The position numbers were made by a program, and so were the translations under genes. 64,000 nucleotides of DNA from Sediminicoccus rosea (GTDB taxonomy: Bacteria > Pseudomonadota > Alphaproteobacteria > Acetobacterales > Acetobacteraceae): positions 3,651,501 to 3,715,500 of the forward strand of contig NZ_CP137852.1 of NCBI RefSeq assembly GCF_033547095.1. The letters are read 5' to 3'. The notes below the pieces were generated by a model that saw nothing but the letters and a program-made list of their open reading frames with translations, did not search any database and was not told the DNA's origin. Within the stretch, counting starts at the first letter, position 1. Each line of letters opens with the position of its first letter. Below are positions 15,359 to 63,791 of this stretch, one piece after another.

Positions 15359-16611
15359 GCGGCCCTCCAGCGCGCAAACTGGCGCGCCAGCCAGGAGCCC
15401 GCCCCCTCGGCGGGGGCGCGCACGGCCGTGATCTCGCGCGTCAGCGGCGCCAGCGCGCGCCGCAGCTGAACGCTCTGGCGCAGCGCCGGCTGGCCCAGAT
15501 TGGCGGCGCGGGGCAGCAGCTGCGGCAGGTCGGGGATGACGAGGTCGGGCGCCGCGCCGAGCCCCTGCTCCACCAGCTTCAGCGTCAGCCCTCCGGGCAG
15601 CCCGGCGCGGTTGAGCACCGTCATCGCGCGCAGGGCGCCCTCGGCCGGGAGCAGCTTGCGCGCCGCGATCGCATCTCGGATGCCCGCGACATCGGGGCTC
15701 ATCACCAGCACCACGTGGCGCGCCATGTCGAGCGCCGCGCGTTCCGCCTTGCCGGGCGGCATCGGCATGTCGATCACCACCTGGTTGAAGCGCTGCTGCA
15801 GCATCTCGACCAGCCGGCGCACGCCCTCCTCGGTCGGCGCGGGGGCGGATTCCAGGGGCTCGTCCGCCGCGATGAGGCGCAGCCGCTCTTCGATCGGGAT
15901 CACGACGCGGTCCAGGAACAGCGAGTCGACCCGCTCCGGATCCTCCAGCGCCACGCGCAGCCCGGTGCTGGCCTGCACGCCCAGCATCAGCCCGGCCGTT
16001 CCGCCGCGCAGATGCAGGTCCAGCAGGGCGACGTGGCCGCGCGCCACATCGGCCATCTGCAGGGCGAGGTTCACCGCAACGGTGGTGGCGCCGGACCCGC
16101 CCCGCACACCGCACACCGCCACCACCTGCCCGCTGCGGCGGGCCGCCGCCACTTGGCCCGCATCGCGCAGCAGATGCGGCGCGACCAGCCGCGCCGCCAG
16201 GTCCCGCGTGATCGGCTTGGCCAGGTATTCGGCGATCATCAGGTCGCGCGTCAGCTGGCGATAGAAGCCGATATCCGTCCGCTCGCCGATGACGATCACG
16301 CCGACATCGGGCGTGCAGACATGCGCCAGCGCCTCCAGCGCACCCAGCGGGTCGGCCAGCCCGCTGATGTCCACCAGCAGCGTCTCGGGCGCTGGCTCGC
16401 GTTCGAGCATGGCCGCCGCGACCAATGCATGGCCACGGCGAAGCTGCAGCTGGCCGGACGGCAGGTTGAGGCCTCCACGCAGCGCCGCCTCGCTCTCCTC
16501 ATCCGTGACGAAGGCCAGCAGCTGCGCGCGGCGGCCGGCGCCGCGCCCCTCGGCAGCGCCGCCGCGGGCGATATCGGGGGCTTCGTGGACCGGGCGCTGC
16601 TCAGTTCGCAT
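15355..16611 (-). CDS. cpaE: CpaE/TadZ-like MinD-family ATPase for pilus localisation
   Basis: A 418-residue protein with an N-terminal receiver-like domain (about 45-165) that lacks a clear phosphorylation site, followed by a MinD/ParA-like ATPase. The deviant Walker A reads GVRGGSGATTVAVNLALQ (about 170-190), and LALLDLHLRGGTAGLMLG and VVIDMPMP fit the switch regions. CpaE/TadZ proteins place the Tad machine at a cell pole. The gene overlaps cpaD upstream and cpaF downstream in the operon. Confidence 0.9.
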   Translation of the reverse strand: MRTEQRPVHEAPDIARGGAAEGRGAGRRAQLLAFVTDEESEAALRGGLNLPSGQLQLRRGHALVAAAMLEREPAPETLLVDISGLADPLGALEALAHVCTPDVGVIVIGERTDIGFYRQLTRDLMIAEYLAKPITRDLAARLVAPHLLRDAGQVAAARRSGQVVAVCGVRGGSGATTVAVNLALQMADVARGHVALLDLHLRGGTAGLMLGVQASTGLRVALEDPERVDSLFLDRVVIPIEERLRLIAADEPLESAPAPTEEGVRRLVEMLQQRFNQVVIDMPMPPGKAERAALDMARHVVLVMSPDVAGIRDAIAARKLLPAEGALRAMTVLNRAGLPGGLTLKLVEQGLGAAPDLVIPDLPQLLPRAANLGQPALRQSVQLRRALAPLTREITAVRAPAEGAGSWLARQFARWRAA

Positions 16612-26374: not shown

Positions 26375-29300
26375 ATGGCTGGTTCGCAACTTACCGGCCT
26401 GACCGGGGCCATCAACTTCCGCGAGAGCGACACCAACGCCGCCCCGCGGCTGCTGGATTCGGACGTCACGTTCACGCTGGGCGCTTCCCTGGCTGGCGGA
26501 CGGCTGGTGGTCTCTGGCCTGCTCGCGGAGGATCGCATCTCGATCCTCGAAGAGGGCGGCGGCGGGCAGATCAGCCTGTTCGGTCAGGACGTGCTCCATG
26601 ACGGTCTCACCATCGGTCGCCTCGCCGGCGGCGTCGGCGCCGATTTCACCGTCACCTTCAACGCCGACGCGACCGAATTGGCAGTGGATGCGATCATCCA
26701 ACGCCTCGCCTATGCCAATGTCAGCGACACGCCGACCGCCACGCGCACCCTTACCGTGAACCTGTTCGATGCCGCGGGCCGGGGCCTGAACGCGATCGGC
26801 CCCCTGACATCACTGACGGGCGGTGATAATCCGCTTGCCGGCCGAGGTGGCGGGGATGCGAGCCGGCCGGCCTTCGTGGACCTCGACGGTGACGGCGATG
26901 CCGACCTCGTCTCGGGCAACGCTACCGGCGAGTTCCTCGCCTGGCGCAACACCGGCAGCGCCACCGCGCCCGAGTTCACCCCTCTCACCGGCAGCGACAA
27001 TCCCTTCAACGGCCTGGATGCGGGTCAACGCAGTGCGCCTAGCTTCGTCGACTTCGACGGCGATGGCGATCTCGACCTCGTCTCGGGCAATGCCGCCGGC
27101 GCGTTCCTCGCCTGGCGCAACACCGGCAGCGCCACCGCGCCCGTCTTCACTCCCCTCACCGACAGCGACAACCCCTTCGCCCGTCTCCAGATGGTGATCG
27201 GATACACCGCACCGGAGTTCGTGGACCTCGATGCCGATGGCGACCTCGACCTCGTCTCGGGCAGCCTGTTCGGGGACCTGGGCCTCTGGCGCAACACCGG
27301 CAGCCATGCGGCGCCGGTCTTCACCCCGCTGGTCGGCAGCGCAAATCCCCTCTCCGGCCTGTCCGCCGGCATCTTCGCCGGGCCTCGCTTCCTGGACCTC
27401 GACGGCGATCTCGACCTCGACCTCGTCTCGGGCGACTACTTCGCAGGCATCCGGGCCTGGCAAAACATCGGCGACAGCGCGACACCCGTCTTCATCGAGC
27501 TTACCGGCAGCGACAATCCCTTCAACGGATTCACCACCGGGGAATTCAGCGCGGCAACCTTCGCCGACCTCGACGGCGATGACGACCTCGACCTCGTCGC
27601 AGCCATGTTCGACGGGACCCTCCTCACATGGCGCAACGGTGCAACGCCGGTCCCCCGCATCACCGTCACCGTCACCGCGGAGAATGATGGGCCCATCATC
27701 ACCTCTGCCACGACGGCCAGCTGGGCCGAGAACGCCACCGGCCCCGTCTATCAGGCGGCCGCCACGGACGCCGACGGGGGCGGCAGCTTCACCTGGTCGC
27801 TCGGTGGCCCGGATGCACTTCTGTTCGCCATCAGCGCCACCGGTGAGGTGACCTTCCGCGCAGCGCCGGATTTCGAGGCGCCAGGCGATGCGGATGGCGA
27901 CAACGTCTACGAGATCACCATCACCGCCCGTGACGGCACGACCGACGGACTGCCGCAGGCCGTGGCGATCACAGTGACGAATGTGATCGAACGCTCCGCG
28001 CTGACGGGCCTCGGCCCCGCCGCGGCCTTTGCCGAGAACACGGTGAACGGTGCGCCGCAACTGCTGGACGCGGACGTCATCACCACGCTCGACCTCCCGC
28101 TGGCTGGCGGACGGCTGGTGGTCTCAGGTCTGCTCGCGGAAGATCGCATCTCGATCCTGGAAGAGAGCGGTGGCGGGCAGATCAGCCTGCGCGGCCAGGA
28201 TGTGCTCCATGGCGGCCTCACCATCGGTCGCTTCGCCGGCGGGGTCGGCGCCGATTTCACCGTCACCTTCAACACCGATGCGACCGGGGCGGCGGTGGAT
28301 GCGCTGATCCAGCGCCTCGCCTATGCCAATGTCAGCGACACGCCGACCACCACACGCGACCTGACGATCAACGTCGTGGACGGCGCCGGGCGAGAGCTGG
28401 GCCGAGGCATCGGCGTCCTGACGTCGCTCACGGGCGGTGACAATCCGCTTGTCGGCCTGGATGGCGGCGGTGCGAGCCGGCCGGTCTTCGCGGACCTGGA
28501 CGGCGACGGCGATCTCGACCTGGTCGCTGGCCATGCGAGCGGCGAGTTCCGCGCCTGGCGCAACACGGGCAGCGCCAGCGCGCCCGAGTTCACCCCTCTC
28601 ACCGGCAGCGACAATCCCTTCAACGGCCTGGATGCGGGTCAATTCAGCGCGCCAAGCTTCGTCGACCTCGACGGCGATGGCGATCTCGACCTCGTCTCGG
28701 GCAATGCCGCCGGCGAGTTCCTCGCCTGGCGCAACACGGGCAGCACCACCGCGCCCGTCTTCAACCCCCTCACCGACAGCGACAACCCCTTCGCCCGTCT
28801 CCAGATGGTGATCGGATACACCGCACCGGAGTTCGTGGACCTCGATGCCGATGGCGACCTCGACCTCGCCTCGGGCAGCCTGTTCGGGGAGCTGGGCTTC
28901 TGGCGCAACACCGGCAGCCATGCGGCGCCGGTCTTCACCCCGCTGGCCGGCAGCGCGAATCCCCTCGCCGGCCTGTCCGGCGGCATCTTCGCCGGGCCCC
29001 GCTTCCTGGACCTCGACGGCGATCTCGACCTCGACCTCGTCTCGGGCAACTACTTCGAAGGGATCCGGGCCTGGCAAAACACCGGCGACAGCGAGGCACC
29101 TGTCTTCATCGAACTCACCGGCAGCGACAATCCCTTCAACGGACTCACCAGCGGGGAGTTCAGCGCGGCAACCTTCGCCGACCTCGACGGCGATGACGAC
29201 CTCGACCTCGTCTCGGGCATGTTCGATGGAACCTTCCTCACATGGCGGAACACGTCGCAACTGCCGAGGATCACGGTCACCGTCACCGCGGAGAATGATG

Positions 29301-31000
29301 CGCCCACCATCACCTCCGCCGCCCGCGTCAGCGTCCGCGAGGATGCAGGGGGCGTCATTCATCAGGCCTCCGCCCACGATCGCGACGGCACCACGGAGTT
29401 CACCTGGTCCCTCTCCGGCGCCGACGCGGCAAGGTTCAGGATCAACCCGACCAACGGGGCGATCAGCTTCGCCACTCCTCCCGATTTCGAAGCGCCCGGC
29501 GATGCCGATCGCGACAACGACTATGACGTCACGCTCATCGCCAACGACGGGACGGTGGGAACCACGCAGGCGTTGACCATCACCGTCACGGATGTTCCCG
29601 ACGGTGTGATCCGCCTGGGTGGCCCCGGCAAAGACAGGCTGGTCGGAACGAACGCGAATGACACCCTGTTCGGCGGCGGGGGCGATGACTTGCTCAATGG
29701 CGTGCTGGGTGCCGACAGCATGGAAGGCGGTACAGGGAACGACACCTATGTCGTGGACCATTTGGCCGACGCCACGGTCGAGCTGACCGCCGGCGGCTTT
29801 GACCGCGTCGTGAGTTCACTCGGCTGGACGCTGGCGGCCGAGGTGGAGCGGCTGAGCCTGACGGGCACGGGCGACATCAACGGCACTGGGAATGCCCTGG
29901 CCAATCGGCTGGAAGGCAATGGCGGCGCCAATATCCTCGATGGCAGAGAGGACAACGACTCGCTGTATGGCGGCGCCGGCAATGACACGCTGCTCGGCGG
30001 CAACGGCGCCGACCGGCTGGACGGGGGCCTGGGCGCCGACCGGATGGCAGGTGGCGCCAATGATGACACCTACATCGTGGACGACCCGGGCGATCAGACG
30101 GTCGAGGCGGCGGGTGAAGGCCGTGACCGCGTCGTGAGTTCGCTCAGTTGGACACTTGCCGCCGAAGTGGAGCGGCTGAGTCTGAAGGGCACGGGCGACA
30201 TCAACGGTACCGGCAACGCGCGGGCCAATCGCTTGGACGGCAATGCAGGCGCCAACATGCTCGATGGCAGAGAGGGCAACGACTCGCTCTATGGCGGCGC
30301 AGGGACCGACTCCCTGTTGGGCGGCGAAGGCCATGACCTGATGGATGGCGGGCTGGGCGCCGACCGGATGCTAGGTGGCGCCAATGATGACACTTACATC
30401 GTGGACGACCCGGGCGATCAGACGGTCGAGGCTGCGGGTGGGGGCCTTGACCGCGTCATGAGTTCGCTCAGCTGGACGTTGGCCGCCGAAATGGAGCGGC
30501 TAAGTCTGACGGGCACGGGCGACACGAACGGCACCGCCAACGCACTGGCCAATCGCTTGGACGGCAATGCAGGCGGCAACATCCTCGATGGCAGAGAAGG
30601 CAACGACTCGCTTTATGGTGGCGCCGGCAGCGACACGCTGCTCGGCGGCGAAGGAGCAGACCGGCTGGATGGCGGCCTGGGATGGGATCGCTTGACGGGT
30701 GGCACTGGCGCTGACGTCTTCGTCTTCCGCAGCATAGCCGAAGCAGACGGAGACGTGGTGACCGACTTTGGCCGGGCGGACGGCGATCGGTATGATCTTC
30801 GCGCCATTGACGCGGACACGCTTCTGGCCGGGAACCAAGCTTTCGCCTGGATTGGCGGCGCGCGGTTCGGCGGTGTCGCGGGACAGCTACGCTTCGCCGA
30901 TGGTGCCCTTCAGGGTGACGTGAATGGCGATGGCGTGGCCGATTTCGGCATCATGCTTCTGGGCGTCGCCACGCTGACCACGAGTAGCATCTGGCTGTAG
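26375..31000 (+). CDS. Giant secreted RTX protein with duplicated FG-GAP/VCBS and cadherin-like modules
   Basis: A 1541-residue protein with no Sec signal. Two large units of about 537 residues each comprise a beta domain (LAGGRLVVSGLLAEDRISIL, QRLAYANVSDTPT), five to six FG-GAP/VCBS repeats of the form FVDLDGDGDLDLVSGN.AGEFLAWRNTG, and a cadherin-like module (WSL.G.DA..F.I, PDFEAPGDAD). From about residue 1080 there are RTX nonapeptides (GGAGNDTLLGGNGADRLDGG) in three blocks of roughly 100 residues. An M10-type C-terminal domain ending TTSSIWL resembles the end of the protein at 4062-9293. Expected role: calcium-stabilised, type I-secreted surface protein or adhesin. No exporter genes are near. 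ATG at 26375 is the first in frame. Confidence 0.88.
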   Translation: MAGSQLTGLTGAINFRESDTNAAPRLLDSDVTFTLGASLAGGRLVVSGLLAEDRISILEEGGGGQISLFGQDVLHDGLTIGRLAGGVGADFTVTFNADATELAVDAIIQRLAYANVSDTPTATRTLTVNLFDAAGRGLNAIGPLTSLTGGDNPLAGRGGGDASRPAFVDLDGDGDADLVSGNATGEFLAWRNTGSATAPEFTPLTGSDNPFNGLDAGQRSAPSFVDFDGDGDLDLVSGNAAGAFLAWRNTGSATAPVFTPLTDSDNPFARLQMVIGYTAPEFVDLDADGDLDLVSGSLFGDLGLWRNTGSHAAPVFTPLVGSANPLSGLSAGIFAGPRFLDLDGDLDLDLVSGDYFAGIRAWQNIGDSATPVFIELTGSDNPFNGFTTGEFSAATFADLDGDDDLDLVAAMFDGTLLTWRNGATPVPRITVTVTAENDGPIITSATTASWAENATGPVYQAAATDADGGGSFTWSLGGPDALLFAISATGEVTFRAAPDFEAPGDADGDNVYEITITARDGTTDGLPQAVAITVTNVIERSALTGLGPAAAFAENTVNGAPQLLDADVITTLDLPLAGGRLVVSGLLAEDRISILEESGGGQISLRGQDVLHGGLTIGRFAGGVGADFTVTFNTDATGAAVDALIQRLAYANVSDTPTTTRDLTINVVDGAGRELGRGIGVLTSLTGGDNPLVGLDGGGASRPVFADLDGDGDLDLVAGHASGEFRAWRNTGSASAPEFTPLTGSDNPFNGLDAGQFSAPSFVDLDGDGDLDLVSGNAAGEFLAWRNTGSTTAPVFNPLTDSDNPFARLQMVIGYTAPEFVDLDADGDLDLASGSLFGELGFWRNTGSHAAPVFTPLAGSANPLAGLSGGIFAGPRFLDLDGDLDLDLVSGNYFEGIRAWQNTGDSEAPVFIELTGSDNPFNGLTSGEFSAATFADLDGDDDLDLVSGMFDGTFLTWRNTSQLPRITVTVTAENDAPTITSAARVSVREDAGGVIHQASAHDRDGTTEFTWSLSGADAARFRINPTNGAISFATPPDFEAPGDADRDNDYDVTLIANDGTVGTTQALTITVTDVPDGVIRLGGPGKDRLVGTNANDTLFGGGGDDLLNGVLGADSMEGGTGNDTYVVDHLADATVELTAGGFDRVVSSLGWTLAAEVERLSLTGTGDINGTGNALANRLEGNGGANILDGREDNDSLYGGAGNDTLLGGNGADRLDGGLGADRMAGGANDDTYIVDDPGDQTVEAAGEGRDRVVSSLSWTLAAEVERLSLKGTGDINGTGNARANRLDGNAGANMLDGREGNDSLYGGAGTDSLLGGEGHDLMDGGLGADRMLGGANDDTYIVDDPGDQTVEAAGGGLDRVMSSLSWTLAAEMERLSLTGTGDTNGTANALANRLDGNAGGNILDGREGNDSLYGGAGSDTLLGGEGADRLDGGLGWDRLTGGTGADVFVFRSIAEADGDVVTDFGRADGDRYDLRAIDADTLLAGNQAFAWIGGARFGGVAGQLRFADGALQGDVNGDGVADFGIMLLGVATLTTSSIWL
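26390..29601 (+). repeat. Two tandem 1.6-kb coding repeats inside the RTX gene
   Basis: The first unit (about 26390-27990) and second (about 28001-29601) carry the same module order, offset by roughly 1.61 kb. Long runs are identical at base level, for example the stretch around 27180-27290 and 28790-28905. The identity at the DNA level, including third codon positions, points to a recent duplication or gene conversion. Confidence 0.85.
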
Positions 31001-32040: not shown

Positions 32041-35000
32041 ATGAAGCGCCTGCCTGCCGCTCTGCTCGCCACCACCGCGCTGGTGGCCGTGATGTCCCTG
32101 GCACAACCGGCATGGAGCACCGGCGGCGCGGGCGGCAATGGCGGCGCCGGCGGGACGAACAGCGCCACGGCAACCGGGGGCGCCGGCGGCAACCGGACTG
32201 GAACCGCTGGTGGTGGTGGCGGCGGGGCCGGCGCCACGGGCGGCGCCGGTGGCTCGGCAGGCGCGGGCGCGGGCGGGGCTGGCGGCGCCACCGCCGGTGC
32301 AGCCGGCGCGGCCGGCCAGGATGGGGCCGGCGTTGGCGCTTCGGGCGGCGGCGGCGGCGCCCATGGCGCCGTGGGCATGCTCCTGCCCAGCGCGCCGACC
32401 ACGGGTGGTCAGGGCGGTCAGGGCGGCCAAGGCAGCGCGGGTGGCAGCGGCGGCGGCGGCGGCGCGGGCGGCTGGGGGGCCGCCGTGACATCCAATCCCG
32501 GCACCGCAACCCTGAACGCGACCCTCACCGGCGGCGATGGCGGCAATGGTGGCAGCGGCGGCGGGGGCGGGCTGAATGGCGGTGGCGGCGCGGGCGGCAC
32601 CGGCCTCCATCTCGGATCCGCCGTGACAAGGGTGACGATCAATGCCGCGGTCACCGGCGGCAATGGCGGCAATGCCACCTCGCCGGCCGCGGCCGGCGCC
32701 GGCGGCGCGGGCATCGCCATCGGCACCATCTTCACGACGAACCTGGTCATCGGCGCGGCCGTCTCGGGCGGATTGGCGGGCAATGGCGGAGCGCAGGGCT
32801 TCGCGCTCAGCACCGGCACCACCGGCGCGCATCGCCTGACCATCGCGCCGGGCGGCTCCCTGAACGGCGGCATCAGCATCGGCACCGGCTCCAGCCTCAC
32901 CCTCGCCCAGGCCACGGATGTGACGATCTCCAACGTCATTTCCGGTGGGGGCAGCTTGGAAATCGATGGCACGGGCATGGTGACGCTGAGCGGGGCGAAC
33001 ACCTATTCGGGCGGCACGATCCTCCTCTCGGGCGCCGTCTCGGTGGCAGCGGATGCGGCGCTCGGCCAGGTCAATAGCGGGGTGGGGCTGCGGGTGACGG
33101 GCAACAGCCGGTTGATCACCACGGCGAGCTTCTCCAGCAGCCGCGTCATCACCCTCAGCGCCCTCAACGGCGGCGTCTTCGCCCCCGCGCTCGGCACGGT
33201 GCTGACCCTGACCGGGAGCATCACCCAGAGTGGCACCCCGATCGCCGGCTTCACGGTGGCGGGCCAGGGCACGCTGATCTACACGGGCACCGGCGCGCCC
33301 CGCATGACGGCCATCAACACGGGCGCCACGCTGCAGATCGGCGCCGGCGGCACGACGGGCAGCCTGGGCACCGGCCCGATCACCAATGATGGCACGCTCA
33401 TCCTCAACCGCTCCAACACGCTCACGATGAACAATGCGATCTCGGGCACGGGCGGCCTCATCCACAACGGCACCGGCACCACCACGCTGGGCGGCACGCT
33501 CAGCTACACCGGCCCGACCCGGGTGCAGGCGGGGACGCTGGTGCTCACCACCGCCGGGCTGTTCTCGGGCGGCACCGCGCGCTTCGAGGTGGCCAGCGGC
33601 GCGACACTGAACCTCACCGGGCTGAGCGGCGTGCTGGCGGCCGCCACGCTCGATGGCGGCGGCGCGGTCCAGTTGCCGGGCAGTGGGCGGTTGAGCCTGA
33701 ACGGCGACAGCAGCTTCTCGGGCGTGATCTCGGGCGGCGCCGCGCTGCGGCTCGCGGGTGGCGCCACCATCCTCTCAGGCAGCAATACCTTCAGCGGCGG
33801 CACCACGATCGAGGCCGGCGCCACACTGCAACTGGGCCAGGGCGGCACCACGGGCTCCGTGCCCGGCGCCGTCGAGAACAATGGCACGCTGGCCTTCCAC
33901 CGCAGTGACGCCGTCAGCATGGCGGAGGCGATCAGCGGCACGGGCAGCCTCGTCCAGATGGGACCGGGCACGCTGACCCTGACCGGCGCCAACACTTATG
34001 CGGGCACCACGACCATCGCGGGCGGCACATTGCGGGTCGGCGATGGCGCGGCCAGCGGGACGCTCGGCGCCGGCGCGATCGTGAACAACGGCACGCTGGG
34101 CTTCGCCCGGCCCGATGCGATCAGCCTTCCGAACAACATGACCGGCACCGGCGCGCTCAGCCTGGCCTCGGGCACGGTGACCGCGACAGGCAGCCTCGGC
34201 CATGGCGGCGGCACCACGATCGGCAGCGGGGCACGGCTGAACATCGGCAATGGCGGCACAACCGGCAGCCTCGCGGGGAATGTCGTGAACAACGGCACGC
34301 TGAGCTTCGCCCGCAGTGACAACGTGACCTTCGCCGGCGCGATCTCCGGCCCTGGCGGCTTGCAGCAGAACGGCACCGGCAACCTGATCCTGACCGGGGC
34401 GAACACCTATACCGGCCCGACCGTGGTGAATTCCGGCACGCTCTCGGTGAACGGCTCCATCTCCAGCGCCTCGGTCATCACCGTGGCTGCCGGCGCCACG
34501 CTTGGGGGCTCGGGCCAGATGGGCGCGGTCACCGTACCGGCAGGCGGGACCATGGCGCCGGGGAATTCCATCGGCACGATCAACCTGGCCGGGCTTACCC
34601 TGGACAGCGGCTCCACCACCGCCATCGAGATCGAGGGCAGCGCGATCGACCGGATCAACGTGACGGGCAACGCGTCCCTCGGCGGCACGCTGCGCTTGCT
34701 GCCGCTCGGCGGGAGCTACAGGTTCGATACCACCTACGTCATCATCCAGGCCGGCAGCATCACCGGGAGCTTCGCGACGGTCACGACGGCCGGCAGTTTC
34801 GGCGCAGGTGTCACGCCGACGGTGAGCGTCACCGCGACCCAGGTCCAGCTGGCCCTGACGCCAGCAATCCTGCTGGCCACGCCAGAGCTCACCCCTGGGC
34901 CCACAGCCACAGACCCGGCTGCGCCCACCGTCGCGCGGGCGCCCGGCATCCCCGGCTTCCTGACCCATAATCTGCGCGCCACGGCAGCCGCGCTGGATGC

Positions 35001-36093
35001 CGCCAACCGCGCCGGCGGCAACCTCAATCCGCTCTTCCCCGTCTACAGCCAGCCGGCCGCCACCATCGGCTTCGCGGTGAACCAACTCTCGGGCGAGGTC
35101 GCGACCAGCATCGGCGCCATGGGCTTCGCCGCGGGTGAGCAGTTCCTCGCCGCGCTGCTGGACCCGCTTGGCCATGGGCGTGCGAGCCAGCTTGGCGGAA
35201 GGCTGAGTGCCGGCAGCGATGGGTCCGATGCCCTCCCTTCAGACGGCAAGCGATACGCCGTCTGGGGCAGCGCGATGGGCGCCTACAACCGCACGACGGG
35301 CGACGCGCAGGATGGCTCGGCCAGCCGCACCACGCGGATGACAGGCTTCGTGCTCGGCATGGACCATCTGATCGGCGCGCAGGGCATGCTGGGTCTGGCC
35401 ATCGCGGTGGGTGAGAGCAGCGCCGCGCTGGCGAGCGGCCAGGGTAGCGCCTCGGCCAATCTGGGCCAGATCGGCGCCTATGGCAGCACGCGCCTTGGCA
35501 GCTTCACGCTGGCCGGCGCGGGCGCCGTCACGCTCATGGATGTTGACAGCAGCCGCACGCAATATGCCCTTGGCAGCGATCAGCAGCGGGCGGGGTTCAG
35601 CGCGCGCGTCACCTCGTTGCGGGCCGAGGCGCGGCAGGATGGCTTGGTGGCGGGCGGCTTCCGGCTCCAGCCGCTGGTGGCGATCCAGTGGCAGCAGGTC
35701 AACAACCAGGGCTACACCGAAAGCGGCCTCGTGGCCGGCACCGCGACGGGCCTCACGGTGGCCGGGCAAAGCCAGACCTCGCTGCGGACGGAGCTGGGTG
35801 GGCAGTTGCGGGGCTCGGTGCAGCTCGGCACGCTGCCGGTGCAGAGTTTCCTGCGGGCGGCCTGGGCCAGCTACCTGGTGCGCGATGCGGCGATGACGGT
35901 GACCTTCGCGAGCCTGCCGGATGCAGGCTTCGTGGTGCGGGGCGCCCGGGCGGATGCCAATGCGGCGCTCGTCTCGGCAGGGGTGGAGATGCCCCTCACG
36001 CGAGGCTGGACGCTGGGGGCGCGGGTGGATGGCGAATTCTCCGGCAATGTCACCCAGCTCGCCGGGACGGCCAGGCTCCGATACACCTTCTGA
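32041..36093 (+). CDS. Type V autotransporter with Gly-rich N-terminus
   Basis: A 1350-residue protein. A Sec signal (MKRLPAALLATTALVAVMSL, cleavage after AWS near residue 26) precedes a Gly/Ala-rich stretch (about 27-200: GGAGGNGGAGGT-like repeats). A beta-helix passenger follows with autotransporter-associated repeats such as LSGANTYSGGTILLSG, LTGANTYAGTTTIAGGTLRV and NNGTLSFARSDNVTFAGAIS. The last 270 or so residues are an autotransporter beta-barrel (GKRYAVWGSAMGAYNRTTGD ... LRTELGGQLRGSVQLG) ending in the typical strand RLRYTF. GGAGA lies 5 bases before the ATG. It is self-sufficient for secretion and likely acts in adhesion or aggregation. The 273 bases upstream hold only IS flank. Confidence 0.93.
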   Translation: MKRLPAALLATTALVAVMSLAQPAWSTGGAGGNGGAGGTNSATATGGAGGNRTGTAGGGGGGAGATGGAGGSAGAGAGGAGGATAGAAGAAGQDGAGVGASGGGGGAHGAVGMLLPSAPTTGGQGGQGGQGSAGGSGGGGGAGGWGAAVTSNPGTATLNATLTGGDGGNGGSGGGGGLNGGGGAGGTGLHLGSAVTRVTINAAVTGGNGGNATSPAAAGAGGAGIAIGTIFTTNLVIGAAVSGGLAGNGGAQGFALSTGTTGAHRLTIAPGGSLNGGISIGTGSSLTLAQATDVTISNVISGGGSLEIDGTGMVTLSGANTYSGGTILLSGAVSVAADAALGQVNSGVGLRVTGNSRLITTASFSSSRVITLSALNGGVFAPALGTVLTLTGSITQSGTPIAGFTVAGQGTLIYTGTGAPRMTAINTGATLQIGAGGTTGSLGTGPITNDGTLILNRSNTLTMNNAISGTGGLIHNGTGTTTLGGTLSYTGPTRVQAGTLVLTTAGLFSGGTARFEVASGATLNLTGLSGVLAAATLDGGGAVQLPGSGRLSLNGDSSFSGVISGGAALRLAGGATILSGSNTFSGGTTIEAGATLQLGQGGTTGSVPGAVENNGTLAFHRSDAVSMAEAISGTGSLVQMGPGTLTLTGANTYAGTTTIAGGTLRVGDGAASGTLGAGAIVNNGTLGFARPDAISLPNNMTGTGALSLASGTVTATGSLGHGGGTTIGSGARLNIGNGGTTGSLAGNVVNNGTLSFARSDNVTFAGAISGPGGLQQNGTGNLILTGANTYTGPTVVNSGTLSVNGSISSASVITVAAGATLGGSGQMGAVTVPAGGTMAPGNSIGTINLAGLTLDSGSTTAIEIEGSAIDRINVTGNASLGGTLRLLPLGGSYRFDTTYVIIQAGSITGSFATVTTAGSFGAGVTPTVSVTATQVQLALTPAILLATPELTPGPTATDPAAPTVARAPGIPGFLTHNLRATAAALDAANRAGGNLNPLFPVYSQPAATIGFAVNQLSGEVATSIGAMGFAAGEQFLAALLDPLGHGRASQLGGRLSAGSDGSDALPSDGKRYAVWGSAMGAYNRTTGDAQDGSASRTTRMTGFVLGMDHLIGAQGMLGLAIAVGESSAALASGQGSASANLGQIGAYGSTRLGSFTLAGAGAVTLMDVDSSRTQYALGSDQQRAGFSARVTSLRAEARQDGLVAGGFRLQPLVAIQWQQVNNQGYTESGLVAGTATGLTVAGQSQTSLRTELGGQLRGSVQLGTLPVQSFLRAAWASYLVRDAAMTVTFASLPDAGFVVRGARADANAALVSAGVEMPLTRGWTLGARVDGEFSGNVTQLAGTARLRYTF

Positions 36094-56639: not shown

Positions 56640-56935
56640 GTGATCCGCCGCAGGCAGCGATGCAGCGAAGAGCGGGTAAGGTCCGGGATGGTGGCCTGCA
56701 GAGCGAAGAGGCAATCGTCGAGCGGTAGCAAGGTGTGACGGCGGAAGGTGACGACCACTGCCTCCTCCTTCATGGTCAGCATCGTCGATGCTGGGCTCCT
56801 GGGCCCGTTGGCAAGTCCCTGGCCGAGGCTCGTGCCCGCCACTTGGCGACAATCCTCGGGTTGATCCCGTGGCGCCGCGCCAGAACCCTCATGCTTTCAT
56901 GACTAAGCTGTATCGCTGGAAGGCCCGCCTCTGTC
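56640..56935 (-). mobile_element. IS481-family transposase remnant, N-terminal fragment
   Basis: On the minus strand one frame reads SHESMRVLARRHGINPRIVA, then KWRARASARDLPTGP; the next frame continues RSPASTMLTMKEEAVVVTF, RRHTLLPLDDCLFALQATIP and DLTRSSLHRCLRRI before decay. This is the helix-turn-helix half of an IS481 transposase. The frames change near 56808, and the catalytic DDE domain is missing. It lies between the ABC operon and the next cassette. Confidence 0.8.
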
Positions 56936-56962
56936 GCTGCGCTCCGGTAGGGGCGGAAATGC

Positions 56963-56993
56963 AAAAAGCCCACCGACGATTGCCGGTGGGCTT
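56963..56993 (-). terminator. Rho-independent terminator, minus strand
   Basis: A perfect 10-bp stem (AAGCCCACCG with CGGTGGGCTT) encloses an 8-base loop at 56966-56993. On the minus strand it is followed by a T run (56963-56967). It is placed to end transcription of the minus-strand VWA cassette, 430 bases beyond its last gene, with the recombinase fragment in between. Confidence 0.75.
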
Positions 56994-57021
56994 GATGTGT
57001 TCTCGCGTTCTGTATCAGTGG

Positions 57022-57056
57022 ATGCGGGGACACGCAACCGACGGCGCCATTACATC
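57022..57056 (+). repeat. 35-bp direct repeat, left copy
   Basis: These 35 bases (starting ATGCGGGGACACGC, ending GCCATTACATC) match 63616-63650 at 32 of 35 positions in the same orientation. The two copies enclose the recombinase fragment and the three-gene VWA cassette. They may be attachment-site-like or remnants of the same mobile DNA. Confidence 0.7.
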
Positions 57057-57221
57057 GCCCTCGCAATCTAAGGCTGAGCTCAGACGAATTTCGGTGAAGC
57101 CTAGGCCTCTCCCCCGGAGAACATGCAGCAGAACCGGCATGCTCTCGACGCCGGGGCGCAAAGTGGCCTCAGCCTAGTAAGGTCTAACCTGGCTCGGCCA
57201 GCGCCAAACAAGGGGTCACGC

Positions 57222-57425
57222 GAGGGCTGGGAGGTGGGCGAGGTCTACGCCGACTATGCCATCAGCGGGGCGACTGCCGCGCGGCCGCGCTTCCAGCAGT
57301 TGGTCACGGACGCGCGGTTGGGGCGATTCGGATTGGTGCTGGCCGAGGCCTTGGACCGGATCAGCCGGGACCGGGAGGGGCATGACGCGCCTGCACCCGC
57401 CGCCCTCAATCTCCGTCAGCTGGGC
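57222..57425 (+). pseudogene. Serine recombinase N-terminal (resolvase) fragment
   Basis: The frame reads EGWEVGEVYADYAISGATAA, RPRFQQLVTDARLGRFGLVL and AEALDRISRDRE, the middle of a resolvase catalytic domain (usual GA..RP.....L..A..G..D.VV.EALDRLSRD). The initial strand with the catalytic Ser is absent, and after SRDREG the homology passes into another frame (MTRLH..). It is cut off at the cassette boundary. The bases 57057-57221 upstream show nothing clear. Confidence 0.75.
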
Positions 57426-59429
57426 CTATCGCACCACGATGGGACGGCGCGCGATCACCGCCTTCTCCGGTTCGGCCGAGGCCATTACATATCGCAGCTG
57501 GTAGATTCCGGCAGTGGCCGGCATCGGCAATTCCCCTTCCGACGCCTCGGCGGAGACGCTGAAATAATCGAGATACTGGTCGCCCGGCGCATCCGGGCTA
57601 ACGATGGCGACATAGTCGCCAATGCCACGCGGCCCGCTGAAGCGCACCGTCACGCGGGCGCCGGCCGCCACGGCGCCGGGCGCGTCGAGTGTGGCCATGG
57701 GCGGCGTGGCGGTGATCGGCCGACGGGCGACGACCTCGGCATCGCCGGGCGCGACAAGAACGTAGCGTAACTCATACGTGCCCGCCGCCGGCGGCAGTTG
57801 GATCGTCACCTCCCCGCCATCGGCATAGGCCCAGGAGCCCTGGACATAGGCCGAGGCCTCGGCATCGGGGGCGGTGATCGCGATGAAGCTGCCCTGGGGC
57901 GCCCGGTCCGGCGTGAAGCGGATGGCGACGGGGCTGCCCGCCATACCCCCATCCGGCCCGACGAGGGTCGCGGCGGCCGCCGTCACCGCGATCGGCCGCG
58001 CGGCGAGCGGCGTGCCGTCCACCCCCTCGACGAAGCGGATCTCATAGGCGCCAGGCGCGGCTGGCGCGGTCAGCGGCAGCGGGTTCGCGGCATCCTCCAC
58101 ATAGACGAAGCCACCGCTGACATAGGCGCCGGGTGCCGCACCGGCCGGCACGATGCCAACCCAAGACCCCGGGGCGCGCGGCCCGGTCCAGCGCACCAAG
58201 ACCTCGCTGCCCGCCGGCGCGTCCGCGGCCGCCTCCAGCGTGGCCGTGACCGGCGTGACGGTCAGCGGCGCCCGTCCGATGGGCCGCGCCGCCCGCGCCA
58301 GGATGTAGCGGACCTCATAGGCACCTGCCGCGGCCGGCAGGCGCAGCGTCGCGGGGCTGCCGACGCGCGTCCAGGCATAGTGGCGTGTCTCCGGCTCCTC
58401 CTGCCCCTGGCCCGTCGGCACGATCACCAGGTAGTCGCCCGGCTCGTTCGGACCGGTCCAGGCCACGCCGACGGTGCCGGTCGCGGCGGCGCTGGGCTGC
58501 GCGGGCGTGACCGTCGCGCGCGGCAGCGCATCGGCGAGCGGGACGACAATCTCGTCGGGCGGCGTGGCGGTGATCTGGGCCGTGACGCTGCCGATGCGCT
58601 CCGCGGTGGAGGCGGTCACGACATAGCGACCGGGCGGCAGCGGCAGGCGCAGCGCGCCGCCTTCATGCAGCGGCGTCTCTTCGCCTTCGCGCAGGACGGT
58701 GAAGGTCGCATCGCCGAGCGTGGGCCCGCCCGGGCCCTGCGTCGCGCGCAGGCCGATGCCGCGTGGTGGCGCCGCGGCGGGTGGAGGCGCGGGGCGCGCC
58801 TCGGTGGCGCGGGTCAGGGCGTCGGCCAGTTCCTCGGGATTGGCGGCGGGCACGAACAGGCCCCCCGTCCGCTCGGCGATGCAGGCGACGCGCGCGCGCT
58901 CGGAGGGCGTGCGCAGGTCGAAGCCGATGACATGGGCGGTGAAGCCGGCATTGGCGGCCTCGAGCTCCGCGGCCAGAGCGCAGGGATCGCCGCCGCAGGT
59001 CTCGATGCCGTCGGTGACGAGGATGATGGTGCCGCCCCGCTCCGCGACGCGCAGCGCGGCCGCCGCCTGGCGGACGGAGTCGGTCAGCGGGGTACGGCCG
59101 CGCGCGGTCAGCCGGTCGAGCGCGGCGCCCGCCGCGGCGACATCCACCGGGCCGGGCAGGAACAGCATCTGGATGTCGCTGCACTGCCCCGCCCGGCGAT
59201 GGCCATAGGCCATCAGCCCGACGCGACTGCCGGCCGGGAAACGGGCGAACATGCCCCGCACCGCCTCCCGCGCGATCTCGAGCTTCGGCTGGTCGCCGAT
59301 GCGGCCCCACATGGAGGCGGACATGTCGAGGATGACGATGGTCTCGCCCTGGGGCGGCGCGGGCTGGGCGCGGGCGGGCGGCGCCACCAGCCCGGCCAGG
59401 GCGACGGCAAGGCTCAGGAGGAGGCGCAT
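57426..59429 (-). CDS. Exported VWA-domain protein with four Ig-like repeats
   Basis: A 667-residue protein. Signal peptide MRLLLSLAVALAGLVAPP with cleavage near ARAQ (about residue 21); a von Willebrand A domain at about 28-205 has the full metal site: ILDMSASMWG (DxSxS), RGRTPLTDSV (Thr) and ILVTDGIETCGG (Asp). After a Pro-rich linker and a PEGA-like strand-rich domain (LPLPPGRYVVTAST), four repeats of about 85-90 residues follow, each with a core like VRFSGPRGIGDYVAIVSPDA and ending TAGIYQLRYVMA.... ATG at 59429 overlaps the upstream stop. Last gene of the cassette. VWA proteins usually bind protein ligands through a metal ion; the ligand is unknown. Confidence 0.87.
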   Translation of the reverse strand: MRLLLSLAVALAGLVAPPARAQPAPPQGETIVILDMSASMWGRIGDQPKLEIAREAVRGMFARFPAGSRVGLMAYGHRRAGQCSDIQMLFLPGPVDVAAAGAALDRLTARGRTPLTDSVRQAAAALRVAERGGTIILVTDGIETCGGDPCALAAELEAANAGFTAHVIGFDLRTPSERARVACIAERTGGLFVPAANPEELADALTRATEARPAPPPAAAPPRGIGLRATQGPGGPTLGDATFTVLREGEETPLHEGGALRLPLPPGRYVVTASTAERIGSVTAQITATPPDEIVVPLADALPRATVTPAQPSAAATGTVGVAWTGPNEPGDYLVIVPTGQGQEEPETRHYAWTRVGSPATLRLPAAAGAYEVRYILARAARPIGRAPLTVTPVTATLEAAADAPAGSEVLVRWTGPRAPGSWVGIVPAGAAPGAYVSGGFVYVEDAANPLPLTAPAAPGAYEIRFVEGVDGTPLAARPIAVTAAAATLVGPDGGMAGSPVAIRFTPDRAPQGSFIAITAPDAEASAYVQGSWAYADGGEVTIQLPPAAGTYELRYVLVAPGDAEVVARRPITATPPMATLDAPGAVAAGARVTVRFSGPRGIGDYVAIVSPDAPGDQYLDYFSVSAEASEGELPMPATAGIYQLRYVMASAEPEKAVIARRPIVVR

Positions 59430-60598
59430 CAGAAGACCGTCCCATTCGCGATGGATTGGCTGAGATTGTCGCGCAGCGCGGGCTGGCACATCTGGACCCG
59501 GATGAGGGTCAGCGCCTGGGGATCGGCGCCAAAGGCCTGCGTCATCTCGGCCGCCGCGGCGGCGGCCTGGTCGTAGGCGCGCGCGGCGTCCTGGGGCGTG
59601 AAGCCCAGCCGTTCATGCGTCTGCAAGCCGAAGGCGGCCTTGAACCCGGCTTCCTGCTCGGCCCAGCCGCAGAGACGCAGCATCATGACCATCTGCCCGA
59701 TCTGCGCGCTGATCGCCTCGCCCGCCTCGGCGGCGGTGACGTTGGGGGGCAGGCTGCCGCGGCTGCGGGCGGGGCGCGGGTAGCGGGCGAAATCCGCGGG
59801 ATTTGAGGCGGCACGGGCCACGGAGGCGGCCGGCGGAGCGGCCGGCGGGGCGGCGGGGGCCGGGCTGGCCATGCCGGGGATGGACATGCCGGGTGGCATG
59901 CCCGGGATCGTCATGCCGGATGGCATGCCCGGGATCGTCATGCCAGGTGGCATGCCCGGGATCGTCATGCCGGGTGGCATGCCGGGCATCGCGGCACCGG
60001 CCGGCGCGGCGGGCATGGCCGGGCCTTGCGGCAGCGAGGCCATGTCGAACAGCGCCGGCGCCTGCGGGCGCCGCATGACGCGCACCGCCTCGAACATCGT
60101 CTCCATCGGGCGCGGCCCGGGTGGGCGGCGATCGAAGTGCTGCGCATCGCCCCCCATGCCCGGCGTGGCGGGCTGCTGGTAGCGCAGCGGCACGCCATCC
60201 GCCGTCAGGCACAGCACGCCGGGTGAGGTCTCCTCCACGCGCCAGAGGGTGCAGCTCTCGCCGGCGATCCGCGCCTCGCCCTCGCGGCGGGCGCGCAGGC
60301 CCGCCCAAGGCAACATGGCCTCGGCGCTCGGCAGGGCCATGCGCTGGCCGCCCTCCTCGAGGACGCCGCGTACTTCGCCGCTGGCGAGGTTCTGCAGCAG
60401 CAGCATGCGACCGCCATCAGCGGCCCCTTCGAAGCGCAGCACGCCGCCGCGGTGGCGGAGAGTGACCGCGCCGTCCATCTCCGGCACGCGGGCCTCCAGC
60501 TCGAACTCGACGCGCGGCAACGGGAGCGCCTGCTGGGCGAGGGCCGGCAGCGCCGTGCCAAGGGTCAGCAGCAGGGCCAGGTGATGGCAACGTGTCAT
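59429..60598 (-). CDS. Exported DUF4412-like protein with Met-rich 9-residue repeats
   Basis: A 389-residue protein with a Sec signal (LALLLTLGTALPALAQ, cleavage near residue 22). Its first part (about 28-150) resembles DUF4412: VEFELEARVPEMDGAVTLRH, ESCTLWRVEETSPGVLCLTA and DGVPLRYQ. At about 200-240 there are four copies of GMPPGMTIP. A helical C-terminal part (about 275-389) contains MMLRLCGWAEQEAGFKAAFG and ALTLIRVQMCQPALRDNL with Cys pairs. Its stop overlaps the VWA start. The repeat could bind copper or other soft metals, which is only a guess from the Met spacing. Confidence 0.75.
   Translation of the reverse strand: MTRCHHLALLLTLGTALPALAQQALPLPRVEFELEARVPEMDGAVTLRHRGGVLRFEGAADGGRMLLLQNLASGEVRGVLEEGGQRMALPSAEAMLPWAGLRARREGEARIAGESCTLWRVEETSPGVLCLTADGVPLRYQQPATPGMGGDAQHFDRRPPGPRPMETMFEAVRVMRRPQAPALFDMASLPQGPAMPAAPAGAAMPGMPPGMTIPGMPPGMTIPGMPSGMTIPGMPPGMSIPGMASPAPAAPPAAPPAASVARAASNPADFARYPRPARSRGSLPPNVTAAEAGEAISAQIGQMVMMLRLCGWAEQEAGFKAAFGLQTHERLGFTPQDAARAYDQAAAAAAEMTQAFGADPQALTLIRVQMCQPALRDNLSQSIANGTVF
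59872..59992 (-). repeat. 27-bp tandem repeat inside the DUF4412-like gene
   Basis: A 27-base unit (such as GGCATGCCCGGGATCGTCATG plus six bases) is repeated about 4.5 times with few changes and encodes the GMPPGMTIP peptide. Copy number could vary between strains by slippage. Confidence 0.85.
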
Positions 60599-60623
60599 GC
60601 GCGCATCCGCTTCGATCAGGGGT

Positions 60624-63371
60624 TCAAGGGGTGCCGCAGCCAGCCCAGGCCGCGCGGCATTCGGGCAGGCAGGCGAGGCGGCGGATCGCTGGCGTGGTGG
60701 CACGTGCGCCGCAGCTACAATCGCAGCCCGGGCCAAGCGGCAGGGCTGCGCCCCCGCCCGTGCTGGCCGGTGCCGGGGCCGATGCCGGGGGCGGGCCGCC
60801 ACCGGCCGACTGGCCCCAGCCCGCCGCGGCCGCCATCGGGCGCATGTGACGCGGCATCGTCTCCCACCAGCGCGGCCAGGCGCGGAAGAAATGCTCGTCC
60901 GGATCGGTCTTGTCGGTCTCGTCGCGCACGGTCGCGGGGATGGCGCCGAAGCGGCCGGCGATGCGCGCCACCTCGGTCAAGGGTGGCATCGCGGCGGCGG
61001 CGCCGGCCGACCCTTCTGGATTGCGGTCCTCGAACAGCGGGGCCTCGAACCGCCCAGCGAGGCCCGCTTCGGGAGAATTCGCCGTGATCTCCAGCCGGCC
61101 GCGCGGCGGATAGAGGCCAAGCGCCAGCACCCCAAGCGGACCGCGGCTTTCCAGCACGCCCTCGCGCGTGCCGTCGCTCCATTCCAGCGCGACCACCACC
61201 GGCTCGACCACGCCGGTGAAGCCCGGCGGCAGGCGCGGCATTTCAATATTGATCGCGATGCTCTCCGGCGCGGCACCCCCCGGCTGACGCAGCATGGCGG
61301 CTTGTGCCGCCGCGCTGAACGCCTGCATCGCCGCCCGCTGGGCGGCCAGGCGGGGGCCATCCATCGGGTCGGGTGTGAGCCCGTCCAGCTGCAGGGTGCC
61401 GAGATCACCCACCGTCGAAGCCAATGCCCCGCCGAGGGAGGACGCCCCGGCGGCGGCCAGCAGCTCCCCGAGCCGGCCGCCGACAAGGCGGATGCGCGTG
61501 AGCGGCCCGCAGGCGATCGCGGCCCGGCGGGGGGCGTCGCAGGCGCCGGCCTCGGCAGGATCCTCATGCGTGACCGGGGTTGGCTGCGGGATCGGCGGGG
61601 CTTCGCGCGGGCGGCCGGGCGGCAGGCGGCGCGGCGCGGGCCGGGAAGCCTCCTCCGGCCGCTGGCCCGGCGTCGCCGTGCCGCTGGCCGAGATGCTGGA
61701 GAATTGCAGGGAGAAGAAGAGCTCCACCTCCACCGGGCCGGTCTCGGCGGGGTTGCGGGGGTCCACATTGCTCAGCAGCACGGTCTGCCAGCCGCCTGTC
61801 GCCTGGCCGCCGCCCGGAAGGGTCAGGGGCGCATACATCACGTTCCAGCGGCGATCGCAGACTCGGCCGGCCTCGGGCCCGCTGCCGGGGGTTGGCCGCG
61901 GGAAGGAGAGCAGATGCGTGCCCCGCGAGCCCAGGCCAAGCTGCGCGGCGGCATCGCAGCGATCGCGCTCGCCGTTGATGACGCGCGCGGTGATGCCCAC
62001 CAGGGGCGGTGGCGGCGGCAGGGACTGCGCGGCCAGGACATCCGGCGCGGCGACCGTCTGCGGCAGCAGCACACTGTTGCGGCCGGCGATATCGGGCGCG
62101 GTGGGGCCGAAACCCTCGACCTTCACATGGATGCAGCGCGCGGCGATGGGATCCACGCGCAGGCGGTGCGTCGCCGTGCTTTCCCCGTATTCGGCGCGCA
62201 AGAGAACCCTGGTGCAGCCCTCCTGCCAGAGCAATGCTTCCCAGAGTGGGAAGGCGAGGTGGCCGGACCGCGAATGGACGTAGCGTTCCGGCAGGTCCGC
62301 CATTTCGGCGATGAAATGGCCATAGGCCTCGGCCACGCCGCCGGGCCAGCCGCCGCTGGCGCGCAGCCCGCGGTCGAGCCAGGTGACCCAGTCGGCCTCC
62401 GTGGTGCCGGCGGGCGGGGTGGTCATGACGCTGTTCATGACCGTGTTGCCACCGCGCTGCCGCACCAGCCAATGCCAGAAGGACTGGGTGAGATAGCCGC
62501 TGCGCCAGGCCATGCCGCGTTGGAACACCGGACGGTCCGGCACGGCGCCGCCGTGGGGGGCGAGCCAATAGGCCGGAACCCAGATCGGCAGCCTGACGGA
62601 GGGATAGGCGAAGTCGGTCAGCTCGTTGGGGTAGCGCGCCGGATCCATGTCAATCGCCAGCGTGCGGTCGTAGCGCCGGGCGCCGGCGAAGCGGACGAAG
62701 CTGTTGAGTTCGCCCGGTTGCCGCGCCAGTCGCCGCAGCCGCGCGGGATGGTTGATCAGCCCCGCGCGCTCCATGGCGCGAATCGCCATGGCGTCCGCCT
62801 GGCCCTCGAGCATCCAGTGCGGCAGATAGGTGGCGGGGAACATCGCGCCCTGCACGGCATGCCAGGCCTCATGCACGACGGTGTGCTGCACCTGTTCATC
62901 AATCGTGGGGAAGGCCGCCGCGTTCAGGGCGATCGCGCCAAAGCCGGGACGCATGAAGCCCAGTGCGAAATAGCCGCGGCCGCCGCGATCGTCATTGCCG
63001 AAGTCGAACCAGAACATCGCCGGCGCGCCGCCCGGCCCCGCCGTGTTCCGATCGATACGCAGGGCGAGTTCGCAGACATAGGCGCGCTCCGCGGCGGTGG
63101 CCGCATCGAGCAGGGTCTGCCGATCCCGTGCGGTGAGCGGGCGCCCCGGGCGGCCTCGACCACCGGAATAGGTGTCCATGTCGCCGAGCCCGCTGATTCC
63201 GCCGGCCAGATGCAGCACGCGTTCCTCGATCACCCAGGGGGCGGGGGTGCAGGCCGCAGCGACGCGCGGCGCAAACGGCGCGTACGCCAACGCGGCGGCG
63301 AGGAGCCAGAAGCAGAATGGCCGCGTGCTCCGGAACAAGGACTCTTCCAACGATTTCTTCCCTGCCGCCAT
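60624..63371 (-). CDS. Large exported protein with HEAWH zinc-protease-like motif
   Basis: A 915-residue protein. A hydrophobic N-terminal segment (residues 18-40, FCFWLLAAALAYAPFAPRVA) looks like a signal. HTVVHEAWHAVQGAMF at about 163-178 carries an HExxH motif (167-171), followed 18 residues later by Glu in WMLEGQADAMA (Glu189); this fits a gluzincin-type zinc site. Downstream are a long strand-rich middle, a Pro/Arg linker (about 565-600), another domain (about 615-800) and a Cys-rich C-terminus (PGCDCSCGA.., LACLPECRAAWAGCG). No named family is recognised. First gene of the three-gene cassette, 25 bases before the DUF4412-like gene. Confidence 0.82.
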   Translation of the reverse strand: MAAGKKSLEESLFRSTRPFCFWLLAAALAYAPFAPRVAAACTPAPWVIEERVLHLAGGISGLGDMDTYSGGRGRPGRPLTARDRQTLLDAATAAERAYVCELALRIDRNTAGPGGAPAMFWFDFGNDDRGGRGYFALGFMRPGFGAIALNAAAFPTIDEQVQHTVVHEAWHAVQGAMFPATYLPHWMLEGQADAMAIRAMERAGLINHPARLRRLARQPGELNSFVRFAGARRYDRTLAIDMDPARYPNELTDFAYPSVRLPIWVPAYWLAPHGGAVPDRPVFQRGMAWRSGYLTQSFWHWLVRQRGGNTVMNSVMTTPPAGTTEADWVTWLDRGLRASGGWPGGVAEAYGHFIAEMADLPERYVHSRSGHLAFPLWEALLWQEGCTRVLLRAEYGESTATHRLRVDPIAARCIHVKVEGFGPTAPDIAGRNSVLLPQTVAAPDVLAAQSLPPPPPLVGITARVINGERDRCDAAAQLGLGSRGTHLLSFPRPTPGSGPEAGRVCDRRWNVMYAPLTLPGGGQATGGWQTVLLSNVDPRNPAETGPVEVELFFSLQFSSISASGTATPGQRPEEASRPAPRRLPPGRPREAPPIPQPTPVTHEDPAEAGACDAPRRAAIACGPLTRIRLVGGRLGELLAAAGASSLGGALASTVGDLGTLQLDGLTPDPMDGPRLAAQRAAMQAFSAAAQAAMLRQPGGAAPESIAINIEMPRLPPGFTGVVEPVVVALEWSDGTREGVLESRGPLGVLALGLYPPRGRLEITANSPEAGLAGRFEAPLFEDRNPEGSAGAAAAMPPLTEVARIAGRFGAIPATVRDETDKTDPDEHFFRAWPRWWETMPRHMRPMAAAAGWGQSAGGGPPPASAPAPASTGGGAALPLGPGCDCSCGARATTPAIRRLACLPECRAAWAGCGTP

Positions 63372-63791
63372 AGGGCTGCGACGTCCATGCTGTCGGCGTG
63401 GGCGGACGTGTCAATCACGTTCTTCTGAAAATCCGTCGGCGACGGGGAGCTGCGGGACAATGTTCGGACCTGTCTTGCCCTGGTGGATGAGTTGGCGGCC
63501 TTCCTCCAGGTTGGGGGAGCGGCTGGTTCCTCGGCTGTTCTCGTGGCTCACAACGGCGAAACGTCCGTCATCTGTTTGGCTTGCGGGCGTTTTGGTCGTG
63601 TATCGGAATTGTTGTATGCCGGGACCCGCAACCGACGACGCCATTACATCAACGTCTCCCTTTGACGCGTCCAGCTACGATCTCTCCCCGAAGGTCAGGA
63701 GCGGACCTCGCGATCCGACATACTTTGTCACGTACCGGAGGAGCCCTGTCGCAGACCCACAGCTAGACGAGGGACTCTCCGGAGTTCCCTG
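63372..63791. other. Intergenic region carrying the right direct repeat
   Basis: No gene is supportable here. GC drops modestly around 63560-63670. It includes the right copy of the 35-bp repeat, and must carry promoters for both the minus-strand cassette and the plus-strand efflux gene; no clear boxes were assigned. Confidence 0.4.
63616..63650 (+). repeat. 35-bp direct repeat, right copy
   Basis: Matches 57022-57056 at 32 of 35 positions, same orientation. It lies in the control region upstream of the HEAWH gene, 142 bases before the efflux adaptor start. Confidence 0.7.

Follow-up and report, generated by a model that had tools for sequence, protein, structure and literature searches.

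We analyzed a stretch of 64,000 nucleotides from the chromosome of Sediminicoccus rosea (hereafter the window), which covers positions 3,651,501 to 3,715,500 of contig NZ_CP137852.1 (C1) in the 5.14-Mb, two-contig assembly GCF_033547095.1 (our genome G000). The subject of this report is a unit at window positions 57019–63650. It is bounded by two direct repeats, carries remnants of large serine recombinase genes at both ends, and holds three open reading frames (ORFs) on the minus strand, which we termed HEA, MET, and VWA. These ORFs are tightly packed: HEA ends 25 nt before the likely start of MET, and the stop codon of MET overlaps the start codon of VWA by 1 nt (TGATG). Inspected by eye, all three products show signal-like N-termini. 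A first-pass annotation of this DNA had described a transferred unit of three overlapping or closely spaced minus-strand genes for products with signal-like N-termini, bracketed by 35-bp direct repeats and accompanied by a resolvase fragment just inside the left one. All of these points hold, and the transferred unit can be defined further, with repeats that look like scars left at the gene of tRNA-fMet.

Direct comparison of the 35-bp repeats (57022–57056 and 63616–63650) reveals 32 of 35 identical bases, the value given in the first-pass annotation, and a repeat search extends the pair to 57019–57056 and 63613–63650 with 89% identity over 38 nt. The first-pass annotation had considered that the sequence might be a widespread repeat. 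This is not so in its own genome, where the 35-bp sequence is found at two places only, both on the plus strand, if up to three mismatches are allowed; a reversed control pattern gives zero matches at the same threshold. The 60 bases upstream of the left and of the right repeat agree at just 18 of 60 positions. Both repeats are bipartite. The left one (57019–57056, plus strand) starts with a 14-bp core, TGGATGCGGGGACA, which in antisense matches the 3′ end of a tRNA-Met (CAT) gene called by ARAGORN in 14 of 14 positions, and continues with an arm, CGCAACCGACGGCGCCATTACATC. The right one (63613–63650, plus strand) consists of a decayed core, TGTATGCCGGGACC, and the arm CGCAACCGACGACGCCATTACATC.

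Two intact copies of this tRNA gene are present in the genome. One is located at C1:3737484, 22 kb to the right of the unit, at the end of an rRNA operon with the order 23S, 5S, tRNA; the other is located at C1:739554. The gene shows unpaired C1 and A72, which is a hallmark of initiator tRNAs. Because of this feature and the position at the end of an rRNA operon, we read it as the gene of the initiator tRNA-fMet. At C1:3737484, an intact serine recombinase ORF enters the tRNA gene and ends with DAGTGFEPVTFRL. The same anatomy is found at C1:739554, where a serine recombinase ORF likewise runs into the tRNA gene, and a scar at 757398 is located some 18 kb from it.

A tblastn search with two intact recombinases of the genome located the remnants in the window. 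In front of each of the two repeats lies the tail (3′ end) of a large serine recombinase gene, and the two tails derive from different genes. The tail in front of the left repeat (56952–57032, plus strand) encodes 27 amino acids up to the core, all 27 of which are identical to the recombinase at C1:739554, whereas the tail that enters the right scar (63432–63626, plus strand) shows 54% amino acid identity to another recombinase, that of locus L011, which is intact and encoded about 27 kb downstream. Neither tail is mentioned in the first-pass annotation. The resolvase fragment that it did report is an internal piece (56 amino acids) of a large serine recombinase gene, from its N-terminal half (57210–57377, plus strand); it shares 86% identity with the L011 recombinase, and PF00239 is matched by its ORF at 3.5e-8. 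Inside 57019–63650 we found only the fragments at 57210–57377 and 63432–63626 and no intact recombinase. For this reason, we file the unit as a remnant and not as a self-mobile island; with its recombinase broken, it is unlikely to move by itself. The overlap between the 3′ end of a recombinase gene and the attachment site is seen at the two scars of the unit, at the two intact tRNA sites, and in the viral contig L082 described below. Elsewhere in the window, positions 10952–11214 retain sequence from the C-terminal half of a serine recombinase (47–57% amino acid identity in two pieces).

The left tail harbors an inverted repeat with a T tail if read on the minus strand (56993–56966). This hairpin of 12 pairs plus T tail (56966–56993) is also found, with the same sequence, directly downstream of the tRNA gene at C1:739554. 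An island with such a tail may supply a terminator to the operon that it enters.

Based on these observations, the stretch 57019–63650 is very probably what is left of a decayed genomic island, one of a tandem series that built up at the tRNA-fMet gene, and the repeats resemble attachment-site scars that large serine recombinases acting at this gene would leave in a tandem array. We propose that a large serine recombinase would insert a circular element at the 3′ end of the tRNA gene. The recombinase gene would end at the attachment site, so that its last codons would be read from the antisense strand of the tRNA gene. If the next island enters at the tRNA gene, the old junction would be displaced outward and become a scar with the order recombinase 3′ end, copy of the tRNA 3′ end, element arm, the arm presumably being the element's half of the site. 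The two 35-bp repeats would then be two such scars with the same type of arm, and the cargo between them would be the three-gene operon of probably exported proteins.

A described system comes close to this arrangement. In the text of PMC3146451 available to us, serine recombinases of Dehalococcoides are reported at the tmRNA gene (ssrA), and the corresponding islands with DsiB are likewise found in tandem, marked by direct repeats of the 3′ end of the RNA gene; the serine recombinase gene likewise always overlaps the attachment site at its 3′ end, and some islands of the arrays are likewise devoid of the integration module. It is because of this match in structure that we assign the unit to an island remnant. 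The two cases differ in their target, tmRNA there and tRNA-Met here, and in the bacteria concerned. The tDNA islands of Islander, as presented in the available part of PMC4383910, also combine an RNA gene, a displaced 3′ fragment, and cargo between the two, and tandem arrays of them are known, but they use tyrosine integrases, unlike the serine recombinases associated with the window scars.

A variant of the island reading does not exclude it: instead of lying beside the recombinase gene of the island as ordinary cargo, the cassette could have been inserted secondarily into this gene and replaced its middle part. The two recombinase fragments share one reading direction, and the three genes occupy nearly all of the space between them, leaving 48 bp on the left and 60 bp on the right. 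The left fragment is, however, truncated on both sides, the fragments differ in their identity to the L011 recombinase (86% and 54%) and could stem from two islands, and we identified no terminal repeats that would mark an inserting element. We consider such an insertion possible, but not probable. It is very unlikely that tyrosine recombinases of the array performed the integration and that the serine recombinase genes were passengers. Two tyrosine-recombinase-like ORFs, recognized by eye, are indeed located in the neighboring island (L011 2725–5765), and tRNA sites are typical of tyrosine integrases according to the available part of PMC4383910; yet at both tRNA loci examined the gene that ends in the attachment site encodes a serine recombinase, and the scars carry serine recombinase tails. 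An origin of the repeats as target-site duplications or debris of ordinary transposons, for which transposase-like debris nearby could be cited (ORF 56776–57066, with helix-turn-helix matches below the Pfam cut-offs), is hardly credible for a repeat of 35–38 bp that has a tRNA 3′ end at its start and two unrelated recombinase tails in front of its copies, and that is also found in two other genera of the family.

The core is overrepresented in the window. Allowing up to two mismatches, we obtained five matches, all on the plus strand, compared with 1.12 expected, and only one of 100 shuffled sequences reached five. The matches are located at 10191, 25524, 31142, 37248, and 57019, the last being the left repeat; the right repeat at 63613 is too decayed to be counted. 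The site at 37248 has the same arm as the scar at 757398, and the sites at 25524 and 31142 share their upstream context. These three sites are candidate scars of the tRNA 3′ end in the same orientation as the repeats. By this reading, five scars of one orientation, two of them the well-supported repeats and three of them candidates, would extend from 25.5 kb to the tRNA gene. Islands thus appear to have accreted across much of the right-hand 38 kb of the window, and leucine-biosynthesis-like and ABC-transporter-like genes (assigned by eye) would be among their contents.

The combination of core and arm was also found outside S. rosea. A 30-base pattern with up to three mismatches matched two of 99 other genomes, G035 and G080, which belong to two other genera of the family. 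In G035, core and arm form the end of a recombinase ORF (DAGTRNRRCQYIEVAI / LDAGTRNRRCQYIEVAI), and in G080 they are located within debris. Among viral sequences, the IMG/VR contig L082 encodes a recombinase with 34% identity, the ORF of which ends with AGAGFEPAAFRL antisense inside a tRNA-Met gene; it is the only one of 11 IMG/VR recombinase relatives with a tRNA-Met on the fetched stretch. A contig obtained by a tRNA-pattern search (L093) contains the tRNA, with a recombinase match limited to the tRNA-encoded residues. The L011 recombinase has zero relatives in the viral contig collection, and the recombinase tails used as short queries gave zero matches in plasmids.

A number of observations weigh against the island reading. 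At the level of the sites, the core of the right repeat deviates from the left core at three positions. The core match at 10191 had to be dropped as a scar, as it has no scar context and is probably due to chance, and the recombinase tails in front of 25524 and 31142 are putative and deduced from the context that these sites share, a search with one of these tails having remained unmatched. The recombinase within the unit is broken, and its fragments, with 86% and 54% identity to the same relative, may come from one gene or from two. Comparison with other sequences adds to these points. A 22-base arm pattern gave zero exact matches in the genome contig collection, L082 is alone among the seven IMG/VR relatives with tails read (of 11) in having its tail inside a tRNA, and none of the recombinases of the named phages RR1-A, Mae-JY29, and Mae-JY30 ends in tRNA sequence. 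Finally, the first-pass annotation had suggested a search for empty sites, in which a single copy of the repeat joins the flanks, and none was found. What this check did yield is the congener G009, in which the neighboring efflux operon is 88% identical from 63714 on and stands behind a scar with a different arm; this genome has zero matches to VWA or HEA, and a separate gene of the DUF4412 type accounts for its match to MET. The function that we suggest below for the cargo is a guess that conservation does not back.

We next turn to the cargo. Judged from the anatomy, co-transcription of the genes and export of the three products are likely. No sigma-70-like promoter was found in the operon region, and a terminator scan of this region detected two hairpins, compared with 1.9 in shuffled sequences, so that the count is uninformative. 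The first-pass annotation had assigned a VWA domain with four immunoglobulin-like (Ig-like) repeats to one product and a HEAWH motif to a protein of 915 residues, and both assignments are confirmed by the data below. It had further called the middle product a DUF4412-like protein with Met-rich repeats; the repeats are present, and the link to DUF4412 is indirect, as MET itself does not match the model, whereas the one member tested of a related family in the genus does.

The VWA gene is located at 57426–59429 on the minus strand (the ORF reaches 59489; 59429 is the likely start) and encodes, behind the signal-like N-terminus, a VWA domain and four Ig-like repeats of 77–79 amino acids each. The domain matches VWA_2 (PF13519) with 41.6 bits, compared with a cut-off of 27. 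DxSxS...T...D is the metal-site motif of VWA domains, and it is complete in VWA as judged from the motif (ORF residues 55, 133, and 160). One of the Ig-like repeats is predicted to fold as a beta sandwich. We considered SKICH as the identity of this repeat: fold scores were slightly raised, the sequence provided no support, and a literature search yielded nothing pertinent. PF13519-type VWA proteins with Ig-like repeats from Alphaproteobacteria and Deinococcus show the same domain order as VWA, with two to nine repeats in 10 of 13 loci and 29–45% identity in the longer matches, but they have other neighbors, and none was found beside relatives of HEA or MET.

Some of these loci have features of their own. 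On a plasmid of Roseovarius sp. THAF9 (L048, 3772–11127), a VWA/Ig gene that is split into two annotated coding sequences is located about 2.7 kb from the gene of an 824-amino-acid HELLH protein with a signal-like start; a 242-amino-acid protein with one Ig-like repeat is encoded nearby as well. In G050 (contig C7, L034), a VWA gene without Ig-like repeats (7419–8744) is located about 3.4 kb from 12102–15884, which encodes a protein of 1260 amino acids with a signal-like start and the motif HEIGHGFGLGH. A protein of about 325 amino acids starting with MWDF and hydrophobic by eye is encoded beside or near VWA/Ig genes in three of 13 loci (L048 11260–12255, L050 6911–7897, and L051 6952–7923), and these proteins are 56–58% identical to the Agrobacterium copy.

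MET is encoded at 59429–60598 on the minus strand (ORF 60802–59429, likely start at 60598) and is composed of a DUF4412-related N-terminal half, a Met/Pro/Gly repeat region, and an unassigned C-terminal region. Its N-terminal half is related to a family of the genus with 196–213 amino acids (as trimmed), to which a paralog from its own genome belongs. The one genus relative tested against DUF4412 (PF14371) passes with a score of 21.9, compared with a cut-off of 21.6. MET differs from these proteins by its longer Met/Pro/Gly region and the additional C-terminal region, and its N-terminal half gave zero match to the model at E up to 10.

HEA, a protein of 915 amino acids encoded at 60624–63371 on the minus strand, contains HEAWH at residues 167–171, Glu189 after 17 intervening residues, and a C-terminus that appears cysteine-rich by eye. 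An HExxH motif with a downstream Glu ligand is the mark of gluzincin peptidases, and HEA conforms to it at the level of the motif. Around HEAWH, the putative metallopeptidase family DUF6782 (PF20573) gave a weak match, with an E-value of 0.007 for the domain alone and 16 bits compared with a cut-off of 27, so that HEA is not a member by this test. No close relatives were found in the genome contig and viral contig collections, and none in plasmids, phages, or PDB sequences. Searches of overlapping genome sets, each including S. rosea itself, recovered only its own copy (one of 60, one of 115, and one of 21 genomes of the genus). In a further set (two of 100 genomes including its own), a match in G069 with an E-value of 5.8e-5 over 97 amino acids and one internal stop was rejected after inspection of the ORFs. 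An AlphaFold model of HEA from the single sequence was useless (mean predicted local distance difference test score 37.5).

The first-pass annotation had suggested that the three products possibly form a single metal-dependent adhesion or protease system and that related genomes be searched for the three genes together. We searched 59 other genomes, each with all three proteins and E up to 0.001, and none of them contained matches to two of the three. Relatives of the VWA and DUF4412 types occur scattered in separate genomes, never together, which for VWA and MET is the outcome that the first-pass annotation had named as speaking against its reading, and HEA has no convincing relative in any search; no relatives of HEA or MET were found near VWA genes at eight genome loci or in any plasmid record. 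Conservation thus lends no support to a reading of the cassette as a single functional system. That the three genes nevertheless represent one conserved mobile system acting outside the cytoplasm, with VWA-dependent binding and a zinc peptidase, is unlikely on these counts, even though the operon with its 25-nt spacing and 1-nt overlap, the complete DxSxS...T...D of VWA, and HEAWH with its downstream Glu in HEA all fit such a system. VWA genes near HExxH proteins in two of 13 loci (the Roseovarius HELLH and the G050 HEIGH protein) would fit it as well, but the Roseovarius protein shows no similarity to HEA (best E 0.64). Our best guess, a weak one, is that the cargo could be an envelope or extracellular unit that combines metal-dependent binding of a partner or surface by VWA and its Ig-like repeats with a HEAWH zinc peptidase. 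PADLOC 2.0.0 assigned none of the three proteins to a family (E up to 1), and readings of the cargo as toxin, defence system, or adhesin found no support in the libraries searched.

According to the accessible portion of a 2014 survey, no serine integrase was known to use a tRNA gene as its target. In the open-licence literature, as far as its text was available, we found no report on serine recombinases at tRNA-fMet (including PMC3146451, PMC4383910, PMC12424338, PMC12884075, PMC12765450, PMC10654092, and PMC11476347). What appears to be new is the apparent target of the serine recombinases at tRNA-fMet, together with the orphan cargo protein. Tentatively, and only as one possibility, these recombinases might constitute an alphaproteobacterial class of large serine recombinases that act specifically at the initiator tRNA gene. 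The codons of their C-termini would be located on the antisense strand of tRNA-fMet, one type would bring a T-tailed hairpin as a possible terminator, and their cargo would include an undescribed exported unit of a VWA/Ig protein, a DUF4412 relative rich in Met, and an orphan zinc peptidase. With the island reading, a cassette that had no explanation can be read as a record of how islands accreted at a methionine tRNA gene. If general, the signature of the recombinase tail could be used for mapping such islands and for finding integrases whose target is widespread. In its cargo, the unit contributes a protein for which we found no convincing relatives and a type of repeat without a library model.

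A few observations concern the neighborhood. To the right of the window, L012 1293–13558, which separates the right scar from the intact recombinase at the tRNA gene, contains metal-efflux-like genes, among them HlyD-like, RND-like, two-component, P-type ATPase-like, and MerR-like ORFs (all by eye). Three ORFs of the window are very long: 4062–9431 (1789 amino acids), 26375–31000 (1541 amino acids), and 32041–36093 (1350 amino acids). The first two have similar ends, ADF...GVLALAGANIWL and ADFGIMLLGVATLTTSSIWL, and the third includes a tRNA-Cys called by ARAGORN at 32262–32363, which is possibly spurious.

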